DNA of 64,000 nt from assembly GCA_026874595.1 (NCBI GenBank), contig CM049316.1, positions 59,777,676-59,841,675 on the forward strand. Reading direction: 5' to 3'. Position 1 is the stretch's first letter. Every line of letters begins with the position of its first letter. The position numbers and the translations under genes were made by a program. Under the pieces are notes generated by a model. That model worked only from the letters and a program-made list of their open reading frames with translations, was not told the origin of the DNA and made no database searches. Source of the stretch: Sipunculus nudus (taxonomy: Eukaryota > Annelida > Sipuncula > Golfingiida > Sipunculidae). Below, piece after piece: positions 15,549 to 60,582 of the stretch.

Positions 15549-16709
15549 CTAGAATACGGGTAGTCGACAAGCAACTACGTGTATCTGCCAAAATCAGAGT
15601 GGAACGGGTGAAGTGAGGCATGGATTGAGTGGAAAGGGGAAATAGAGTGAAGTGTTGCATATTAGCATGGATGTCTGCAGCGGAAATGTGTATGTAGGTT
15701 GTGCCACTTACCACAAAATCCAGAAACCTGTCCAAGTTGTATACATATGCAAAATTTAAGGCAGATAAGTCAAACCACTACATGTATACGAGTGATTTTA
15801 GCCCGTGGCAGACAAACAGACAGACGCTGTGAAAAAAAGGTTGCAGGTGGCGCCACCAGTTTTGCGTATGATAAAGAGCTATGTGAGATCTATACACATG
15901 CAAAACTTTGGCCAAATCGGTCAAACGGTTCCTGAGATATGAGCTTGGATATCTGCATCGTAAACTATAATCTAGGTGGCGCCACCTTTCATAAAATCAA
16001 GAGAGCTGTCAAGGATGTATAAACCTGCAAAATTTTAGGCAGATATGTCAAACCACTGCCGAGATATGAGTGATTTTATCCCACGGCAGATAAACAGACG
16101 GATGCTGTGTAAAAATGGCTGCAGGTGGCCCCACCATGTGATATCTATACACATGCAAAATTTTGGCCCAATCGGTCAAACGGTTCCTAAGATATGAGCT
16201 TGGATGTCTGCAGCGTAAACGTGAATGTACCTGGCGCTACCTGTCATAAAATCAAGAAAGCTATCCAGGATGTATACACATGTCGAATTCCAAGTGAATT
16301 ACTACAATTAGTCAAACCACTGCAGAGATATGAGTGATTTTAACCCAAGGAAGATGAACAGATGGACACTGTGCAAACATGGTTGCAGGTGGCACCACCA
16401 TTTTTTGTGTAATGTTATAAATCTATCCAAGGGCTACATTTGTACAAAAATTTTTTCCTGATAAGGTAAAACGATTCCCGAGATATGTGGGTTTATGTGT
16501 GGAAACAGACGCACAAATAGATGCTGGGCAGAGAGGAAAGGTCAAAGGTCAATGCCAATTTGTTAGGCACCAGTTCACATGGTAATTGGTGTAAGTTTCG
16601 GAAAAGTCCGTCCAGTAGTCTCAGAGGAGTTCTCCGGAAATGAACGCCGCTGCGGTGGCGGAACCGGGTCAAAAACATAGTATCCGCAAAACTTCGTTTT
16701 GGCGGATAC
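15549..16709 (-). mobile_element. Helentron/HINE-like element, copy A
   Basis: Read on the minus strand, the element starts GTATCCGCCAAAACGAAG. It ends with a short hairpin (GTAGT...ACTAC) followed by CTAG, and the flanking base on both sides is T. The interior holds tandem units carrying GGTGGCGCCACC-type palindromes at 15846, 15975, 16124 and 16388, plus a decayed one near 16231. The 5' terminal GTATCCGCCAAAA has an inverted partner next to the 3' hairpin (GTATCTGCCAAAA on plus at about 15580). That asymmetric inverted repeat is the hallmark of Helentron-type termini. No replicase/helicase frame is present, so the copy is non-autonomous. Confidence 0.75.
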
Positions 16710-28449: not shown

Positions 28450-29345
28450 AATTTCCAATTAGTGGATGTTCACCTTTATCTCCGCTCATTTACCTCTAGT
28501 TTGCCAACTGAAACACACACTCACATAGAGACTGTAAAACATTACTGTTACAGTTAACTTATCCCTTCAGGACTGAGTGAATATAGAAACAATTTCCTCT
28601 CTCATTAAACTTATCAGGTTTGTAACATGCATACACAACTCTCTTCTGTTACCTTATTCTTGGAAAAAGGTTAACTGACACAAAACCAACACAAACACAA
28701 ATACAACAAGAGTACCGCAAACGTGCATAATACACCCGACATGTATCTGGTGACCTTTGACCTAATTCAATATGCGTGAATTTTGATGAGAAGATAATTC
28801 AGGTGAGAAACTCTACTAGTGAATATAAATAATGAGTTTCATGAAAATCCATAGGATTTTTGGTAAGTCACCAAGGTGCCTCCAAAGTGCAGTGACCTCT
28901 GATCTCATTAAATATGCATGGATTTTGCTGGAAATCGAACTTAGGCGAAATATTTCATTGATTAACATTTCTGATGAATTTTATCAAAATGCTTCATATT
29001 CTTTGTAAGTTACCTTGCTGACACCACAAGGCAGTGACCAGTGACCTTATTAAATATGCCTGGATTTTGACCACAATCAAACTCGGGTGAGATAATCTCT
29101 TGGTTAGTAGTTGAGTTTCACCAAAATCCATCAAAGCCCTGGTAAGTTATCCCGACAACACTTAAAGATAATGAATCGACAAATGGATTGACCGACAGTG
29201 GGTAAACCATAATATTCCCTCATATGATAGGTGTATAAAAATTTAGCTTTCCCTGGAGGACTTGGTGAACATAAAAACTTCCTTGTCCCACAATCAAAAC
29301 AGGTTTTTCACACACAACTGTGGATGTTCCACTTCATCTCCGCTC
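28450..29345. repeat. Compound interspersed repeat with about 145-bp core units
   Basis: Flanking direct repeats GTGGATGTTC...TCTCCGCTC occur at about 28463 and 29323. Inside them, TTCAGGACTGAGTGAATATAG at about 28566 corresponds to GGAGGACTTGGTGAACATA at about 29255. The core holds three imperfect units, with TGACCT near 28751, 28893 and 29042 (142 and 149 bp apart), each followed by AAATATGCNTGGATTTTG-like sequence. This is an element with a tandem core, decayed and non-coding. Confidence 0.65.
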
Positions 29346-29967: not shown

Positions 29968-30416
29968 CTAGAATACAGGTACGTGTATCCACTATATCAC
30001 AGACTTGGTGTCAGAGAGGCATGGGTAAAGGAAGGCAAGGAATGTTCCTGACATATATGTGCAATTTTCACCGAAAGCAGATCTACCATGGATACACCAT
30101 GCAAGATTTCTGGCCAATACACCAATCCACTACTGAGAAAAAATACATTAATGTATTGATCAAGATCTATAGACATGCAAAATTTCAGCTCAATACACGA
30201 AACCACTCCTGAACCCAGATTCATACTGCACGATAAGGACTGCAGGTGGTGCCACCAGTCTTTGTTAGGCATAACTACATAGGTGATCGAATAACTATAC
30301 TGGTTTTTGGAAAGATAGGTCCAATGGTGTCGGAGGAGTTCTCAGAAAAACGAACGCAGTGGCAGCTGAACCTGGTCAAAAACATAGTATCCACAAAACT
30401 TTGTTTCGGTGGATAC
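29968..30416 (-). mobile_element. Helentron/HINE-like element, short copy B
   Basis: Same family as 15549-16709. On minus it starts GTATCCACCGAAACAAAG and ends TGTATTCTAG with T flanks. It is only 449 bp, with a single palindromic core (GGTGGTGCCACC at about 30246). The GTAGTC/GACTAC hairpin before the 3' end has been lost. It is a contracted or deleted derivative. Confidence 0.7.
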
Positions 30417-39179: not shown

Positions 39180-40969
39180 GTAAGTATTATCCAGGGGTTA
39201 CAGGGTGAAATTGTGAAGTCCTTGACAGTTGATTTTGCCAGTTTTCAGACCATGTGGTCTCAGCATGCAGTATTGGGTTGTTATTTTTATATTTAAACCA
39301 ATTAACTGTAATATTTGTGTTTATAGTATGCATAAAGGGACAAAAGAAGACTGTTGAATATAACTGGTGTTTTTTTTTTATTTGAGACCTGCGTCTCATC
39401 TCCGGTTTCCCCCCATGTTTTTATTTACTTTTACATAATGTTTATGAATAATATAATGTTGTGCATTATATGATAAACATTATGTAACTGTCAGTAGCAC
39501 TGAATAAACTGTATTTTAAAATTTAGTTTGAATTCAGTCAGTGAGACTCTTATACCTTTATCATAAATTTTATCATATAAATTTCATCATTTCTTTAGTG
39601 AAGACCTTGAATTTATTATACTGTGTAAATGAAAATGTTATTAATGGCAATGTATAAAAGTAAAAATGTCCAAAATTAAGGTCATTTTACATGAAAGAAA
39701 ACATAATGTCTTCAAATAATGAGTCAGCATATCTTTAGGAGATCAAATATTTGCTCAAATGTGAAATGAGAAGAAAACAGTTGACAAATCCGCCTTATTA
39801 TTGCATTTAAACAAAGCATACATAAATGAGGTTTGAAACCATGAAGAAATTTAAAACAGGATTCTCCCTTATTTTGGCTAATTCCAAACTAGCTAAAGTC
39901 TACAACTTGTGAAAGGAATTTAAATAGTGTCCTGTGTTCCATCTGAGGTCAGAGACGGCTAGCTGACATATTATGTGGCATTTCCCACAAGGTGCCACAA
40001 TTAATAATTTTAGTAATTGAATAACTGTGCCAATCATTTGGTTTGGTCATTTAAATATGGAGATACAGAGTTCATGTGGTCACCACTGGTTAGTTAAGAA
40101 GACAGTATGTGACCACAACCATTCATACCTTTTCATCATCATTGGTGCTGAATAAGGGTCAATGTGTGAAATCTGAGGCACAAGTGCTAATTAAGTCCCT
40201 GCATTCTGCTTGGCCTACTACAAAAGGAGTGAAGGCCATAATGCATTCCCAGGAGTATTGTGAAACTGTAATCAAAACACTGTGAACTCGCTTTAGAACA
40301 ATACATTAAAACATCACACCTCTGACACATACTGTTACAGAGTTTTTGACACACTACTCAATTCAATACAAGCAGAATGTACTTGCAGGGATTTGGCTTA
40401 TATATGCTCTTAACACAATGTAATTTAAGTCAGTGTGATGTCATGTTGATTTACTGTTTTCAGGCCAGATTTCAGTGATGTTTCAATACTAATTTCTCAT
40501 GCATGTTTATTTAACATTTTTGCACAGATCTCTGTTTGGTACATGTACAGTAAGGAACAAATGATATAATTTCTTAAAGTTATATATTTAAAAGGACCTG
40601 CTTCATGAAGTATCACAAAACTGTTGAGTTTATCAGCCTGTTTGTGATGTTATTTGTTGCAGATAAAACTTTTTTTAACATCAGTAAACAATAAAAAAAA
40701 AGCATGAAAGACCCTGACAGTGACCCTATCATCATAAACTTTTTCCCCCATAGAAATGGGTAATGAATTACCAATGGATATATTAATTGTATAGATGGAG
40801 ATGAACAAATTAATTTGATCTGGAAATTTATACATACTCAGTTGATTTTTAATAGATATAATGTAAATGTGAATATAGATTTGAGATAACAGTGAAAATT
40901 ACACTTTAATCTTAATTTACTGCAAAATATGCCATATAAATATAAACTTCAACCTTTGCTGATTTCCAG
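39180..40969 (+). other. PDP1: Inferred 5' UTR intron of PDP1
   Basis: Bounded by GTAAGTATT at 39180 and TGCTGATTTCCAG ending at 40969. The interior is AT-rich with no exon or repeat of note. Confidence 0.4.
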
Positions 40970-42528
40970 GTGATTTTGTCCCAGACAACAAAAAACCTCT
41001 CGAGTGTGGCCAGCTACTCAAGTTAAGATGTAAAGAATTTCACAAGAGAAACTCACAAGAGAGAGAGACAGCAATGTTGTCCATTTTGCGCACTGTACCT
41101 TTCTACACGAAAGGTACAGCAAAACATGTGATACGCCATTTTCACAGACATCATGGTCTGAGAGAGAGAGAGTTACCTTCCCCGTTCAGTTTGTTAGAGA
41201 GCCGTGGATATGTCCCCACTTTGTCACCGTCACAAGTTACGTCAATTCTTAATATGAATGAAAGCACTATGCATGTTAAACACTTTGGGAGATCTCCAGT
41301 GCGAGGGTTCGAGAGTAATCAGCTGGCGTCTAACAATCCCATCGAAGATCGGCGAGCAGTGGGTCAGCAGTTACAAACTGAGGGATTCCTATTTGGTGTT
41401 TATGATGGACATGGTGGATGTGCCTGTGCTCAGGCTGTTCAGGAACGCCTGTTTGATTACATAGCTGCGGCCTTGCTTCCCCTTGAAATCTTGGAAGAAT
41501 TTAGTCACCGTATGCATACAGATGAACCCATGGAAATCATGCAACGATTTCGCCATGTTAATGAATATACAAACACGGAAATGACAAAATTGAACCGTAA
41601 CAGCCTCCACAAATTTGTTGCTGAGACATTATCCACAGATCTTGATGATCAGGAATCCAGTTTTACGGCTGCGATGGAAAACGCTTTTCTCAGGTTGGAT
41701 AATGATATCAGTGCAGAAGCTTTACCGGTTGGGGGTATGGTTAACTTTGAAGCTGTTGAAGTTGCTTTATCAGGGGCATGTGCTTTAGTTGCACATATAG
41801 CAGGGGTTCATGTACATGTCGCTAACACTGGGGACTGCAAAGCAGTGCTTGGTCAGTTTGAAGACGGTGTATGGCAGGCTATACCCTTATCCATAGACCA
41901 CAATGCCGAAAACGAGCAAGAGGTAGAAAGAATAAAGCTGGAGCATCCCAAATCTGAGCACGCAAATGTGATAAAAAACAACCGTCTTCTTGGGCAGTTG
42001 GCGCCCCTTAGAGCTTTTGGTGATGTACGATACAAATGGGCCGTAAAAGATCTGAAATTTTTAGAAACTATGGGTACATACGGACAGAGTTTGGTTGCTA
42101 TGAATTATCAAACTCCTCCATATTTAACCGCAAAGCCTGATATCTTGTATCACCGCTTAGGTCCAAGAGATAAATTTTTAATCCTGGCTTCAGATGGGCT
42201 TTGGGAACATCTCCCTGACCACCAGGTGGTGCAACTTGTTGGGGAGCACATGCATGGACGACAAACACCCGCAGCATTTGAACCACATTCAAAAAACCTG
42301 AAACTTGGATCATTGAACCAGCAATTGCGTCAACGGAAGCAAGGATTGGCAAACAGAGCGATCGACACAAATTCAGCCACTCATCTTATTCGTAACGCTC
42401 TTGGCCTACAGCACCAGAAACTCTCGGCCATGTTAACTCTTCCTCCACACGCTGTTCGCTTCTACCGTGATGACATCACTGTCACAGTTATTTTCTTTGA
42501 TGATGAATATATTGCTAACCAGGCATAA
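40970..42528 (+). other. PDP1: PDP1 transcript exon (leader plus coding)
   Basis: Begins after the TTTCCAG acceptor and carries a 104-base leader before the chosen ATG. The PDP1 frame has no stop between 40970 and the ATG, so an N-terminally extended isoform fed by an upstream exon cannot be excluded. Confidence 0.5.
41074..42528 (+). CDS. PDP1: Pyruvate dehydrogenase phosphatase, mitochondrial
   Basis: A PP2C-family Mg/Mn-dependent phosphatase that removes phosphate from the E1-alpha subunit of pyruvate dehydrogenase in the mitochondrial matrix and reactivates the complex. At 484 residues it is slightly shorter than the human enzyme (about 530). The basic, Asp/Glu-free first 30 residues fit a mitochondrial presequence. 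The PP2C metal-site motifs are all present: E91 in PIEDRR, D111 in YDGHGG, D254 in NTGD, D374 in SDGLWE and D466 in YRDDIT. RAFGD (313-317) and the PDP-characteristic LEHPKSE (289-295) are also seen. The large intronless coding exon matches the vertebrate PDP1 layout, so a retrocopy need not be invoked. The ATG is the first one giving a presequence. PDP2, the vertebrate paralogue, is the only serious alternative name. Confidence 0.95.
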   Translation: MLSILRTVPFYTKGTAKHVIRHFHRHHGLRERELPSPFSLLESRGYVPTLSPSQVTSILNMNESTMHVKHFGRSPVRGFESNQLASNNPIEDRRAVGQQLQTEGFLFGVYDGHGGCACAQAVQERLFDYIAAALLPLEILEEFSHRMHTDEPMEIMQRFRHVNEYTNTEMTKLNRNSLHKFVAETLSTDLDDQESSFTAAMENAFLRLDNDISAEALPVGGMVNFEAVEVALSGACALVAHIAGVHVHVANTGDCKAVLGQFEDGVWQAIPLSIDHNAENEQEVERIKLEHPKSEHANVIKNNRLLGQLAPLRAFGDVRYKWAVKDLKFLETMGTYGQSLVAMNYQTPPYLTAKPDILYHRLGPRDKFLILASDGLWEHLPDHQVVQLVGEHMHGRQTPAAFEPHSKNLKLGSLNQQLRQRKQGLANRAIDTNSATHLIRNALGLQHQKLSAMLTLPPHAVRFYRDDITVTVIFFDDEYIANQA

Positions 42529-49142: not shown

Positions 49143-50933
49143 CCAACACTTTTCATGACCAACATCCTATATATTGTTATAGGCTAAATGGCACATTTTT
49201 GTATGTTATAAAATACATATGCTATAAAATACTTCTGTGCTGCAATACTGAAGTATGGTTCTGAATGCATACATCTTACCTTCAATGTATGTTTTTCTTA
49301 CCTGTGTGTTTCTTTAATATTGGGGGATGTTTACTGTGATGGTTGACCCACATTCCAACAGTTCTTGACACTTGTGCAAGCAGTTTACAATAGTCTCAAA
49401 ACCTTAAAAATCTCTTTGATCTGTTTCAGCTCAGTAACACCGAACTGTATATTCTACAGAGCATCAACCATTTGATATTTTTTAGTTATGTTTGCTCACA
49501 TTTTGCATATGGGGTGTATTTGTTGAGGTTCTTTGGCTATTAAAGTCTCTTTGATATGAGTCTATTAACATGTTTGTTTTTCCCTGTATGTATCTTGAAG
49601 GAAACTAATGCAAAAATGCATCTTGGTTGTGGGCTTGTTCACATTTTTTGTAGGCAATATTCTTAAGGGAACACCTACTAATTTATGTTTGTTACCAGGT
49701 GTTCTAGTCTTCAAAGAAATCTTTTTTTTTATTATCTCAGAATAAACTTAAGAATTAATGTATCATTGAAATATACCTGCTGTCACTCTTTATGACTTAT
49801 TCCCCCAAAGAACTATTAAGGTTATATTTCTTAATAATTTTAGATTTCTTTAAAAAGAATTATCAGTCCATCAGCTTCTCTAAATTCTGATAGTCTTTTT
49901 TTTTTCCTTAAGGGACTGAAATGCTTGAATTAATTATTGAATTTGTTCTTTAATCTTTCGAGTTATTTTAATAATGCTATCAGAGTGTTGCCTTGGAAAC
50001 CAAAACTGATTAAAGCATCTTTTCTGTGGGTTTGAAAGTTTTTTCCATGTTTGGATTTTTCTTAAGGAATCTGAAACCACTCTTCCTGCAAAATTGAGTC
50101 TGTTTACATTGTTATTATACTAAGCATTTGTTTGCCTATTATCTTTTAACAGTTTAATATAAGCTTAAACCAATACATATGTATACTGGTACACAAGATA
50201 GATTGCTCATATGAGATTGTAACTGTGTAAAATCAATGTGTCTGACAGTGTGTTTAGTTTGAGTGTACATGCACAAAATTTGCCATCAGTGTATATGAGT
50301 TTGTGAGTATGTGTATGAAATTTTACCTGAGAGCAGTTTACCAGTTTACAGGCATAGGGTTTGCAAGAACTGAGGAAGTCAGGACAAAATGAACTCTCTG
50401 TTTACTTGTTACTCACAAACAAACTTGAATCCTAAGAAATCCATCCTTATGCCCAGAGATGCAATCTGCACAGGAATAATTGGACTTAGGAATACAAATT
50501 AGAGATACTTCTTCCAAGTTTGTTTGGAAAAAAACAAGGGACCCATGGGTCATGGCACTCAGCTGAATTTTGTATAATTAACTTGAGACAGCTTCCTGCA
50601 TTTGCCTTGAGAAGCCATACCTGTCATCCACTTTCATTAATTACATTTTCAAAAGACCTCCACCTTGGCATTAAGATAACCCTTGGTTTATCAGCATGCA
50701 TTGTGAGATAAAGTTGATATTTCAATGTCACATGAAGTGGTGTCATTGAACCTCTTGTGAAAGCACTGATAGTGATATCATATAAAAACGAATCAATAGG
50801 GTTATCTTTATACCACAGGAAATGGCATCTACCAAGAAACAGGATTTATAGTCTTCACTAGTAATAGGAATTGGTTTTAAAATCATATTCAATGAGTTAA
50901 AGATAGAAAATAACTGATGTTCAATCATTAATT
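49143..50933. other. Non-coding AT-rich stretch
   Basis: No supported exon or repeat. Confidence 0.5.
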
Positions 50934-52406
50934 GTATCCGCCAAAATGAAGTTTTGTGGATACTATGTTTTTGACCGGGTTCCGCCACCACCGCCGGCGT
51001 TTGTTTCCTGAGAACTCCTCTGAGACTACTAGACGGATTTTTCCGAAACTTACACAAATTATCGGGTCACATGTCAACTGGTGCCTAACCAAGTGGCCTT
51101 GACCTTTGACCTTTCCTCTCTGCCCAGCGTCCGTTTGTGCGTCTGTTTCCAGACATAAACCCACATATCTTGGGAACCGTTTGACCGATCAGGAAAAATT
51201 TTTTACACAAATGTAGCCCTTGGATAGCTTTATAACATACTCAAAAAAAAGGTGGCGCCACCTGCAGCCATTTTTGCACAGCGTCCATCTGTTTGTCTGC
51301 CTTGGGTTAAAATCACTCATATCTCTGCAGTGGTTTGACTAATTCACCTAAAATTCGGCATGCATATACATCCTAGATAGCTTTCTTGATTTTATGACAG
51401 GTGGCACCACCTACATTCACGTTAATGCTGTAGACATCCAAGCTCATATCTTGGGAACTGTTTGACCAATCAGGAAAAAAAATTTACACAAATGTAGCCC
51501 TTGGATAGCTTTATAACATATACAAAAAATGGTGGCGCCACCTGCAGCCATTTTTGCACAGCGTCCATCTGTTTGTCTGCCTTGGGTTAAAATCACTTGT
51601 ATCTCTGCAGTGGTTTGACCAAATTACCTGTAATTCCGCATGCGTATACATCCTGCATGGATAGCTTTCTTCATTTTATGACAGGTGGCGCCACCTACAT
51701 CCACGTTCACACTGTAGACATCCATGCTTATATCTCCAGACTTGTTTGACCAATCAGGAAAAAATGTTTACACAAATGTAGCCCTTGGATAGCTTTATAA
51801 CATACACAAAAATGGTGGTGCCACCTGCAGCCATTTTTGCACAGCGTCCATCTGTTTGTCTGCCTTGGGTTAAAATCACTCGTATCTCTGCAGTGGTTTG
51901 ACCAAATTACCTGTAATTCCGCATGCGTATACATCCTGCATGGATAGCTTTCTTCATTTTATGACAGGTGGCGCCACCTACATCCACGTTCACACTGTAG
52001 ACATCCATGCTTATATCTCCAGACTTGTTTGACCAATCAGGAAAAAAAATTTACACAAATGTAGCCCTTGGATAGCTTTATAACAAACACAAAAATGGTG
52101 GCGCCATCTGCAGCCATTTTTGCACAGCGTCCATCTGTTTGTCTGCTGTGGGATAAAATCACTCATATCTCTGCAGTGGTTTGACTTTTCCACCTGAAAT
52201 TTTGCATGTGTATACATCTTGGATAGTTTCTCATTCAAATAACAGGTGGCACCACCTACATTCATGTTTATGTGCCAGAGATCCATTCTAATATGTAACA
52301 CATGTAACTCTTATTTCCCCTGCTTCTCAAACCATGCCTCACTTCACCCGTCCTACTCTGATTTTGGCGGATACATGTAGTCACTTGTCGACTACCTGTA
52401 TTCTAG
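50934..52406 (+). mobile_element. Helentron/HINE-like element, copy C (best preserved)
   Basis: The 5' end GTATCCGCCAAAATGAAG starts a stem-loop with GTTTTGTGGATAC. The inverted partner TTTTGGCGGATAC lies at 52362-52374. It is followed by the hairpin GTAGTC...GACTAC (52377-52395), seven bases, and the terminal CTAG. Both flanking bases are T. The core holds four units about 283 bp long (GGTGGCGCCA-type starts at 51251, 51531, 51814 and 52097). The order (asymmetric inverted repeats, 3' hairpin, CTRR end, T-T target, tandem core) fits the non-autonomous Helentron class that includes bivalve 'pearl'-type elements. There is no Rep/helicase frame. Confidence 0.8.
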
Positions 52407-53001: not shown

Positions 53002-54408
53002 GTATCTGCCAAAACAGAGTTTTGTGGATACTATGTTTTCACACTGGTTCCACTGCTGCCTCCGCCTCATTTGTTTCCTGGAAATTTCTCTAAGACCCTT
53101 AGACTGATCTTTCAGAAGCCTAGCATACTCATTCACTCACATGTGAACTATTCCTTAAAAAGACTGTTGTATGAATGTTGAAAGTTGTGCAGTATAAATC
53201 TGGGCATTTTAGTGATAACAGCCTGCATATCAGGAATGGTTCAATGTATTGAGCTGAAATTGTTCATGTCCATAGATTTTGAATCTCTCCATCTCAGACT
53301 CAAACTTGTGGCACCATATACCATAATTTTCACAATCACATCCATCCATGCGTTTGCACTTGGTACATCTTAAAGATTGGTTCAATGTATTTGGCTTAAA
53401 TTGTGCATAGATCTTGGATACCTCCATCCCGTACTCAAGACTAGCGAATCCTTTTGCAATAGTTTTCCCATGGCATCCATCCATATTATTGCTTTGGGGG
53501 AATTTTTTTCTCAAAATTCAGGTGTAGTTAAATGTATTGGTCTGAAATTGGGGATGTCCATTCATCTCGGAGAGCAATCTCCTAGACCAGAATGGTGGTG
53601 CCACCTACATTCATGTTTCCATAGAATACATTGATGCCCTTTTCTCAAGAGTGGTTTGCCCTATTGGCCAGAAATTATGCATGTCTGTAGATCTTGGATA
53701 CCTCCATCTCATACTCAAGACTGGTGGGGCCATCTGCAATCATTTTTGTGTGGCATCCGTCCAAATGTTTGCTTTGGATGAATACTGCTTAAATCTCAGT
53801 TGGTGTTCAATGTATTGGTTTAAAATTTGGCATGCCCATCCATCTTGAAGAGTTTTCTCATTGACCAGACTGGTGGTGCCACCTATCCTCCGTTTTCACA
53901 GAATACATTGATGCCCTTACATCAGGACTGGTTCGCCTTATTGGCCCGAAATTGTTCATGTGCATGGATCTTGAATCCCTTTATTTTGTACTCAAGACTG
54001 GTGGCCCTATCTCCAATGGATTTTGGTCCATTTACTTTGGTAGAAAACTGCTTACATCTCAGGAGTGGGTGGAGGTATCAGCCTGAAATTATGCATTTTT
54101 ATTCATCTTGGATAGCTTTGTTGAACACCAGACAGATGGGGCCACCTGCCATTCTGTTTTAATAGAATACATTGTTGCACTTTTTCTCAGCAGAAGATTG
54201 GTGTCTTGGCCTGATTTTTTGCATGTTGTATCCATCTATGGATCTTTTCTTTGGGTGAAAATTGCACATAAATGAGGAGTTTAATTTGGATCTCTGATGC
54301 CACAAATTTGGAATCATGTCATGTCCAGAACATTCAACACCTTATATTACCCATGCCTCTGTGATTTGGTGGATACATGAAGTCACTTGTTGACTGTCTG
54401 TTTTCTAG
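53002..54408 (+). mobile_element. Helentron/HINE-like element, diverged copy D
   Basis: The 5' end GTATCTGCCAAAACAGAG pairs with GTTTTGTGGATAC. The 3' end has GGTGGATACATGAAGTCACT, a decayed hairpin (AGTC...GACT) and CTAG followed by T. The core units carry GGTGGTGCCACCT and related motifs (53592, 53872) but are much more diverged than in copy C. This is an older insertion of the same family in the same orientation. Confidence 0.7.
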
Positions 54409-55810: not shown

Positions 55811-56520
55811 TAACAAGAGACCCAGGGGTCTAATGTTCACTCTGTTAATTACTGTGCATTTTGGCAGATGATTAAAAAAAATGTTTCAGAAAGATCAGTC
55901 CAAGAGTCTCAGAGGAGTTTTGGCAGATTATAACAAATAAATACTTAATGACATATTATGGATAAAAGTGGAAAAGACCATTACAGCCTGCTGAAAGTAA
56001 CTTAACACAGGTAGCGCTACCTGCAGGTCAAAATCATTAAGCAGTCACATGATCAATATTCCTGTGAAATTTGAAACTGAAGGCTGCAGCAGTTCCTCAG
56101 ATATTTAGTAACAGACAATACATCCTGTTTGGAAACACATCAAGTTGGCATATTTTGCGATCGACACGATTTGAAGTTCCATAGAGACGCCACCTTGAAA
56201 ATGACCTGACTGAATTTACACACAAATTATTCCCCTTCTTCTAAGGAACTGTTGACTATGATATGAAGGCCAAAATATTAATACTTTATGACTTATCTTG
56301 GAAGAAGTGGAAAAGACCATTTCCTCCCGCAGAAAGTAGGTCAACATAGGTGGTGCCACCAAAAGCTTATTTTTGCATGTCCATCCCATGATCATTAATT
56401 CTGCAAAGTTTCATGAAGGTAGCTGCTGTGGCTGTTGAGATATTTGGTAACAGGCAGTGGACGGTGGACAGTTGACAGTGGACGGCGGACGCTGCGCCAT
56501 GGCATAAGTTCACAGAGTGT
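55811..56520. repeat. Interspersed element with two 338-bp units
   Basis: AAAGTGGAAAAGACCATT (55967) recurs as GAAGTGGAAAAGACCATT (56305), each followed by AAAGTARSTYAACAYAGGT and a palindromic core (AGGTAGCGCTACCT or GGTGGTGCCACC). The left end has ACAAGAGACCCAGGGGTC. The right end has a GTGGACGGTGGACAG-type purine run followed by GCGCCATGGCATAAG. This looks like a distinct tandem-core element abutting the preceding transposon. Confidence 0.6.
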
Positions 56521-60000: not shown

Positions 60001-60049
<49 letters not shown>

Positions 60050-60294
60050 AATCATAAAACGAAGACTGGAGAAAATTTTACTGATAGCGGTACATTATTA
60101 CAAATGTGTGAATTAATGACAACTTTAACAGCAGGGATTTCTGTCCAAATAAGCTGTGTGGCTACGTTTAGTTTAACAGTTAATATTAATATAGTACTAT
60201 AACAGCATTACTAATAGTAATACTTTGAGCCTGCCTCTCTTTCGTAACATAGAAAAGAAACATATAATCAGATGTATATGCATATATATAAATA

Positions 60295-60343
<49 letters not shown>
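60001..60343. repeat. TA microsatellites flanking a duplicated unit
   Basis: Long (TA)n runs at 60001-60046 and about 60300-60343 bracket the first copy of a 298-bp unit. Confidence 0.9.
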
Positions 60344-60346
<3 letters not shown>

Positions 60347-60582
60347 AATCATAACACGAATGACTTGAGAAAATTTTACTGATAGCGGTACATTAATACA
60401 AATGTGTGAATTAATGACAACTTTAACAGCAGGGATTTCTGTCCAAATAAGCTGTGTGGCTACGTTTAGTTTAATAGTTAATATTAATATAGTACTTTAA
60501 CAGCATTACTAATAGTAATACTTTGAGCCTGCCTCTCTTTCGTAACATAGAAAAGAAACATATAATCAGATGTATATATATA
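60047..60582. repeat. 298-bp tandem duplication
   Basis: From TTTAAATCATAAMACGAA to AAACATATAATCAGATGTATA the sequence occurs twice (AACTTTAACAGCAGGGATTT at 60121 and 60419) with few differences. The repeat junctions lie in the TA runs, consistent with slippage or unequal exchange through them. Confidence 0.9.

Follow-up and report, generated by a model that had tools for sequence, protein, structure and literature searches.

An abundant, probably Helentron-like element family in the genome of Sipunculus nudus

DINE-1 elements and other HINEs are the closest described systems to the repeats reported here. The available excerpts of PMC4067079 give them 13-bp subTIRs, an inverted repeat ∼3–22 bp from the 5′ subTIR and a 3′ stem-loop, together with a preference for TT or T-rich targets that are left unmodified, and tandem repeats or microsatellites. 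The same excerpts call the distribution of flanking Ts around HINEs unclear and leave the nicking mechanism open. For the oyster, the available part of PMC7492417 applies the same feature list to 11 elements, adds insertion into other repeats and identifies no autonomous partner.

This study concerns a family whose copies begin with GTATCC, found in a 64,000-nucleotide stretch of Sipunculus nudus DNA (the window). The GTATCC family is very probably a non-autonomous rolling-circle element of HINE (Helentron-like) type. The first-pass annotation had proposed a Helentron/HINE reading, which held up at the level of class; the structural features tested were all present, the autonomous partner aside. 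They comprise a 5′ subTIR with an internal 3′ partner, a local 5′ inverted repeat, a 3′ stem-loop, central tandem repeats with a microsatellite, and insertion at TT with no duplication beyond an ambiguous TT. The element is thus ordinary in kind and very abundant. Its kind is known and the family is new as judged by the text of open papers: among the papers listed for its end and core sequences in open-literature text none was relevant, Repbase lying outside the scope of that search. The palindrome-bearing core, once taken as the mark of a distinct family, is nothing other than the central tandem repeat common in HINEs. Specialist interest lies in a one-sided target word, in passenger copying with an identified carrier Helentron, and in an orientation pattern.

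Window copies and genome-wide abundance

The window holds four copies with sequence in common (E1–E4), all at the coordinates at which they were first annotated. Their parts are as follows.

15549..16709, minus strand: E1, HINE-type copy of 1161 bp; its 5′ hairpin (16680-16709) is exactly the 30-base pattern of the genome search
15581-15593, 15560-15578 and 15549-15552, minus strand: 3′ subTIR, 3′ hairpin and CTAG of E1
29968..30416, minus strand: E2, degenerate HINE-type copy of 449 bp; mutated 5′ motif, C at the 5′ flank, CTAG kept
50934..52406, plus strand: E3, HINE-type copy of 1473 bp, the better kept of the two plus-strand copies
50934..50963, plus strand: 5′ subTIR and local inverted repeat of E3, a 30-nt hairpin (DNA fold z −4.5, 0/200 shuffles as stable)
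51179..52268, plus strand: central tandem repeats of E3, 283-bp unit × 3.9, each unit with roughly two palindromes of the GGTGGCGCCACC type
52362..52374, plus strand: 3′ subTIR of E3, TTTTGGCGGATAC, the exact complement of the 5′ end
52377..52395, plus strand: 3′ hairpin of E3, GTAGTCACTTGTCGACTAC; 12/200 shuffles of the 36-nt end fold equally well
52403..52406, plus strand: 3′ CTAG of E3, then TT
53002..54408, plus strand: E4, diverged HINE-type copy of 1407 bp; 5′ motif at 53002-53014
54364-54376, 54379-54397 and 54405-54408, plus strand: 3′ subTIR (3 mismatches), weak hairpin and CTAG of E4

The ends first ascribed to all four copies hold for three of them in full. E1 (16697-16709, minus strand), E3 (50934-50946, plus strand) and E4 (53002-53014, plus strand) carry the 13-bp 5′ motif unchanged, whereas E2 has it with two mismatches (GTATCCACCGAAA; 30404-30416, minus strand). 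Every copy ends in CTAG followed by TT, and three have TT on the 5′ flank, where E2 has TC. The internal inverted partner ahead of the 3′ hairpin is present in E1, E3 and E4 (one, zero and three mismatches to the 5′ end, respectively), but E2 has neither feature: a search allowing ≤4 mismatches gave no partner, and there is no hairpin. At ≤2 mismatches the 13-bp motif occurs 16 times in the window, where 3.85 matches would be expected, and 0 of 100 shuffles give as many as observed. The longest open stretch in the four copies is at most 114 aa. Elsewhere in the window, a short fragment at 55883-55919 (minus strand) resembles HINE positions 79–115, a 521-aa open frame at 40963-42525 (plus strand) carries a protein phosphatase 2C domain (E 1e-38), and 60003-60577 holds a 298-bp unit (1.9 copies, 97%) with long TA runs inside.

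The 5′ end extends beyond the 13-bp motif as a 30-base hairpin (GTATCCGCCAAAACGAAGTTTTGCGGATAC in E1). Its DNA fold z is −6.5 in the form found in E1 and the fetched copies described below, beside −4.5 in E3 and −3.1 in E4. At the 3′ end, TTTTGGCGGATAC or a variant is followed by two bases, a hairpin whose stem is 7 bp in the common form, a terminal ...TATTCTAG, and then TT. The fold z of this hairpin is −3.65 in the common form, −1.9 in E3 and −0.6 in E4; with 58 of 200 shuffles folding equally well for E4 and 12 of 200 for E3, neither stands clearly above shuffles. Between the ends, the core palindrome GGTGGCGCCACC (≤2 mismatches) recurs at spacings that alternate between ∼149 and ∼131 bases in most examined copies, and the 283-bp unit consists of two halves of ∼140 bp. 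A CCG microsatellite-like run differs in length between copies L015 and L028.

Across the assembly searched (1.43 Gb, 153 contigs), the 30-base 5′ hairpin gave 11,055 matches at ≤3 mismatches and a reversed-pattern control gave none, while the exact 28-base 3′ end without G at +7 occurs 3,981 times. The collection of genomic copies by both ends, which the first-pass annotation had put forward as a check, therefore runs to thousands. The 20 copies fetched as a sample head the list of exact 5′ ends on contig C1, a choice biased towards intact 5′ ends. Nineteen have their 3′ end in the fetched stretch (lengths 869–1747 bp), with a 3′ partner that shows no mismatch in ten, one in eight and two in one. 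The twentieth (L020) has none in the fetched stretch; a same-strand 3′ end 2.0 kb downstream is probably its own. The closest non-nested fetched copies are 95–98% identical by best local alignment, which points to recent activity of the family, in a sample favouring intact 5′ ends. E1 and E3 reach 77–89% identity to these copies, and E2 and E4 align over short stretches. At three further places (C1:28494501, C5:83341103 and C9:51329610) the 5′ hairpin runs straight into an apparent 3′ end (GGATACATGTA); these are apparent deletion derivatives, joined at a common GGATAC.

Rep/helicase loci and nested copies

At least 143 Rep matches were listed among the best 150 of 195 candidates scored. Twenty loci were read in part: 14 with ∼3.5 kb upstream, nine of these extended to ∼7 kb upstream and three downstream, and six more from other score classes; the stretches read for groups A, B and C were extended as well. 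Helentron loci are as follows.

C13:9.1 Mb (L010/L065), group B: single uninterrupted Helentron frame of 2420 aa with Rep match, PIF1 and C-terminal Exo_endo_phos
C11:50.38 Mb (L001/L064): single uninterrupted Helentron frame of 2235 aa with Rep match, PIF1 and C-terminal Exo_endo_phos
C17:35.6 Mb (L008/L059/L076), C5:42.9 Mb (L009/L075/L077) and C1:71.8 Mb (L067/L079): group B copies with the HINE

Alignment offsets in the Helentrons at C13:9.1 Mb and C11:50.38 Mb suggest 63-/69-bp tandem repeats in or near the coding start.

The first-pass annotation had looked to an autonomous partner with a Rep/helicase and the same ends; none of the 20 loci read in part, of at least 143 Rep matches, has GTATCC ends of its own. 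The termini reached in this search were the 3′ ends of groups B and C. The sole GTATCC ends in the Rep loci read belong to HINE copies inserted in Helentron B, and other hits to the 13-mer at one or two mismatches were set aside on visual inspection, having no hairpin. In three Rep loci, an automatic search for a subTIR plus inverted repeat yielded 2, 11 and 6 candidate pairs, none with the family's sequence; these were taken as chance, and the positive control in the window was recovered. Genome-wide patterns that paired one of the family's ends, 3′ or 5′, with a different interior matched 15, 4 and 19 times; by eye, nearly all of these matches are GTATCC-family copies with indels or end-to-end deletions, and one (C2:14341876) fits neither description. 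The first two patterns are weak, barring six or five letters at once and passing about one-fifth to one-quarter of unrelated interiors, and all such patterns would miss a partner with longer common ends.

Because no autonomous partner with the family's ends was found, the choice of a Helentron over the related Helitron2 is one that we infer. A Helitron2-type derivative would belong to the same class and depend on a Rep/helicase without an endonuclease, perhaps one such as group C. The two group C copies (C3:41.77M and C5:20.31M) are 97% identical and have a Rep match and an 877-aa frame with PIF1; the scan, which reached to 0.6 kb from the 3′ end, gave no Exo_endo_phos match. Both copies end at a common boundary, GTGTCG-TTC-CGACAC-AT-CTAGTTT, whose layout of hairpin and CTAGTTT resembles that of the GTATCC family, and the family's ends also fit asymmetric terminal inverted repeats with palindromes at both ends. 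In sequence, however, the group C hairpin and subterminal region, compared at the 3′ end, are unlike those of the GTATCC family, and a Helitron2-type origin is unlikely. Within the window, 28701-29240 (minus strand) is ∼76% similar to repeated non-coding DNA upstream of a group C Rep gene and more weakly similar to group B.

Many copies are nested. Outer flanks are common to eight of the 20 fetched copies, and 2,303 junctions in the genome carry this common-host flank (≤2 mismatches). By these counts, a sizeable share of the family descends from a single nested insertion that was copied along with its host repeat. The uninterrupted host is also present: among the best 40 of 464 candidates, 27 matches continue across the joined flanks as far as the query extends, four of them within 29 kb on C17 and probably local duplicates. 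Among the 20 uninterrupted matches fetched, the T/A run at the junction varies in length, so the host site shows an uninterrupted target and not the exact base of insertion.

Two of the eight host copies were compared: their last 35–37 bases, which end in a palindrome and CTTGTT, match the 3′ end of Helentron group B (copies on C17 and C5) at 94–97%. The common host is another HINE, with group B as the matching Helentron. In the window, a match with two mismatches to the 3′ end of group B and its HINE lies at 50533-50555 (minus strand), 0.4 kb before E3. Group B carries GTATCC insertions as well: in all three close copies (C17:35.6, C5:42.9 and C1:71.8 Mb; 96–98% identical) a GTATCC HINE sits at the same position upstream of the coding frame. 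The related group B copy at C13:9.1 Mb is 92–93% identical over the coding part and aligns poorly at the place of the HINE insertion. The shared position in three of three group B copies, taken with the host nesting, shows that the family spreads as cargo besides its own transposition. This HINE has thus been multiplied while riding in a second HINE and in an autonomous Helentron, and a Helentron fitting the carrier has been identified.

Target word and mode of insertion

Left flanks were compared for 100 copies among the matches listed, using a pattern that excludes G at −7. T occupies −1 in all 100 and −2 in 99. In the 58 that do not have the common-host flank, T stands at −5 in 57, and −3 is A (46) or T (12). 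T at −5 is likewise found in each of 15 copies that lie outside the common host; apart from the four window copies and a few others, these also belong to the 58. On the right, TT follows CTAG in 97 of 100 copies among the matches listed; from +3 on, the flank is A/T-rich with no fixed base (T at +3 in 50 of 100, again among the matches listed). The target preference is one-sided: TN(A/T)TT stands ahead of the element only. This left word, TNWTT, resembles the element's own 3′ terminus, TAGTT. More than 10,000 5′ ends in one assembly thus yield a one-sided word like the terminus of the element itself, and with it a testable prediction of Rep cleavage.

Empty sites were the other check proposed by the first-pass annotation, which held that a target-site duplication or different boundaries would speak against its reading. 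Three insertions have such sites, all of them paralogous, and duplication in them is limited to two ambiguous Ts. For L022, the other units of the interrupted array equal the filled site minus two Ts; for L019, the same holds for a diverged unit upstream at the same locus. For L034, 41 listed rows match the joined flanks over ∼149 bases, and none of the ten fetched is interrupted; one is the filled site less two Ts, and each of the other nine departs from that by one further base. When the joined flanks of 14 copies were set against the fetched sequence, L034 gave the one real span, a self-match of L032 being dropped. A genome search with seven of the 14 joined-flank constructs returned matches for L034 alone (best 40 of 1379 candidates), which may have crowded out others. 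Insertion therefore gains two Ts and duplicates nothing longer, and these Ts are ambiguous, since terminal Ts of the element are not distinguishable from a TT target duplication. Four copies have unlike dinucleotides at their two ends (GT/TT in L018 and L029, TT/TC in L094, TT/TA in L095), which speaks against TT duplication, although point mutation could also produce them. A further 3′-side exception (L096) was dropped, its fetched stretch being without the 5′ end. Two common-host copies (L016 and L017) have GT after CTAG.

The two Ts also bear on whether the family could be a MITE-like derivative of a cut-and-paste TIR transposon with a TT target duplication. Its ends are inverted and complementary, and TT on both sides could represent a 2-bp duplication. 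Such a derivation is nonetheless very improbable: the 3′ partner is internal, ahead of the hairpin and CTAG, in 22 of 23 copies (19 fetched and four in the window, E2 being the exception); the target word is one-sided, with T at −5 and nothing comparable at +3 to +7; and the flank exceptions are not common to both sides. Ends shared with a known TIR transposon had been named at the outset as grounds against a HINE, and those found are not the ends of a symmetric TIR transposon. Descent from a canonical Helitron (5′ TC, CTRR, A^T target) would suit the 3′ CTAG, which fits CTRR, and the hairpin near that end, yet it is highly improbable, as the 5′ end reads GTATCC after TT with no TC and the target is TT, not AT. 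The available part of PMC4067079 counts a subterminal inverted partner and a local inverted repeat at the 5′ end among the features of DINE-1/HINE and Helitron2 elements. An immobile, satellite-like tandem repeat would explain the 283-bp units and can practically be dismissed in view of the defined ends, dispersed copies and empty sites.

For the HINE-type element, then, we infer the mobilising protein, the cut positions and the rolling-circle steps as follows. On the simplest reading, the enzyme would cut behind TNWTT at both the target and the 5′ junction, and at the 3′ end behind CTAGTT. Acting in trans, a Rep/helicase of Helentron type would nick the 5′ junction just past its T-rich word (TN(A/T)TT^GTATCC) and displace the nicked strand. 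Displacement would stop past the 3′ hairpin, with a cut after CTAGTT, and the strand would be joined into a target cut after a like T-rich word. No target duplication would form, and the target word would remain on the 5′ side alone.

Insertion orientation and comparison with known systems

A second family, HINE-like as judged by its 5′ end, has a 5′ hairpin (AGCTCAGCTGA...TCTGAGCT) with 22,769 matches to the exact pattern in the genome; examples of this AGCTC family lie at C1:101578-3139003. Among the matches listed, 82 of 100 left flanks are plain T runs. In the other 18, T is found at −5 in 17 and TT in 17, with A (11), G (4) or T (3) at −3, and from these flanks the second family shows the same left word as the GTATCC family. 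A repeat meant as a non-rolling-circle control for orientation was rejected: in 22 of 29 such markers below 3.15 Mb, an AGCTC-family 5′ end lies 0.5–4.5 kb upstream on the same strand (19 at 1.9–2.1 kb). The marker lies inside AGCTC-family elements and is therefore no control for orientation.

Orientation was compared among rolling-circle families only, for copies listed on the first part of C1 (0–15.75 Mb) and for nested copies from all of C1. The GTATCC-family pairs derive from 124 merged copies below 21.3 Mb, nested copies included. Same-strand pairs, by distance, number as follows.

Second-family marker: 4/6 at <5 kb; 34/37 at 5–50 kb; 36/42 at 50–100 kb; 60/79 at 100–200 kb; 84/130 at 200–400 kb; 139/255 at 400–800 kb; 189/388 at 0.8–1.6 Mb
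GTATCC family: 31/39 at <50 kb; 21/40 at 50–100 kb; 58/83 at 100–200 kb; 81/154 at 200–400 kb; 149/264 at 400–800 kb; 255/517 at 0.8–1.6 Mb
Between families: 44/55 at 5–50 kb; 32/49 at 50–100 kb; 65/102 at 100–200 kb; 78/159 at 200–400 kb; 202/381 at 400–800 kb; 392/691 at 0.8–1.6 Mb

Neighbouring copies agree in strand in 70 of 99 cases for the second-family marker (p ∼0.0001 versus strand shuffles) and in 90 of 99 for second-family 5′ ends in the first 3.1 Mb, a value reached in 0 of 10,000 shuffles. Concordance is 60/99 for GTATCC-family 3′ ends (p 0.02) and 58/85 for nested copies (p 0.003); the GTATCC-family 5′-hairpin sample (56/99, p 0.10) is not clearly above strand shuffles. Cross-family nearest neighbours share a strand in 41 of 64 cases, and 7 of 99 circular shifts reach 41, so that this concordance is suggestive only. 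On sampled C1, with rolling-circle families alone compared, the two HINE-type families tend to be co-oriented within ∼200 kb.

Segmental duplication, gene strand or replication direction are possible sources of this coherence. In bacteria, according to the available part of PMC5371812, IS200/IS605 orientation follows replication direction. By analogy, HINEs might target the single-stranded DNA of replication forks and so have their orientation set domain by domain along the chromosome, a tentative and rather doubtful idea. Were it true, HINEs would preserve a fossil record of the direction of replication, and Rep would cut the 5′ junction, the 3′ end and the target after one T-N-N-T-T word. 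No report of orientation domains for Helitrons was met among the open papers listed on orientation, target or replication, including the available parts of PMC5371812 and PMC5876387. If upheld against other transposon classes, the orientation pattern would be a new link of eukaryotic rolling-circle transposition with replication or transcription direction.

Among known systems, the HUH transposons IS200/IS605 and IS91 resemble the GTATCC family in forming no target duplication; unlike it, they are bacterial, and their mechanism has been shown where that of the GTATCC family is proposed (PMC5371812 and PMC5876387, available parts). DINE-1 and the mite element HINE-Mo are closer, with 13-bp subTIRs, a 3′ stem-loop, a TT or T-rich preference and an unmodified target, and DINE-1 further has the inverted repeat ∼3–22 bp from the 5′ subTIR (excerpts of PMC4067079). 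In contrast to the GTATCC family, both have had their autonomous Helentrons found, and the family described here shows a further T constraint on one side. The bivalve elements Pearl, DTC84 and MgE, compared by description as given in excerpts of PMC7492417, have short central-repeat arrays in a comparable architecture. The Cg_HINEs of Crassostrea gigas, as portrayed in the same excerpts, differ in their monomers of 138–181 bp, against a 283-bp unit with halves of ∼140 bp here, and in the microsatellite, which is GTCY, GTCC or GTCK in several Cg_HINEs and a CCG run here; the ends were compared by description. They are like the GTATCC family in their 5′ subTIR with a local inverted repeat, microsatellite, satellite-like central repeats, 3′ subTIR with a palindrome, T-rich target free of duplication, and insertion into repeats.
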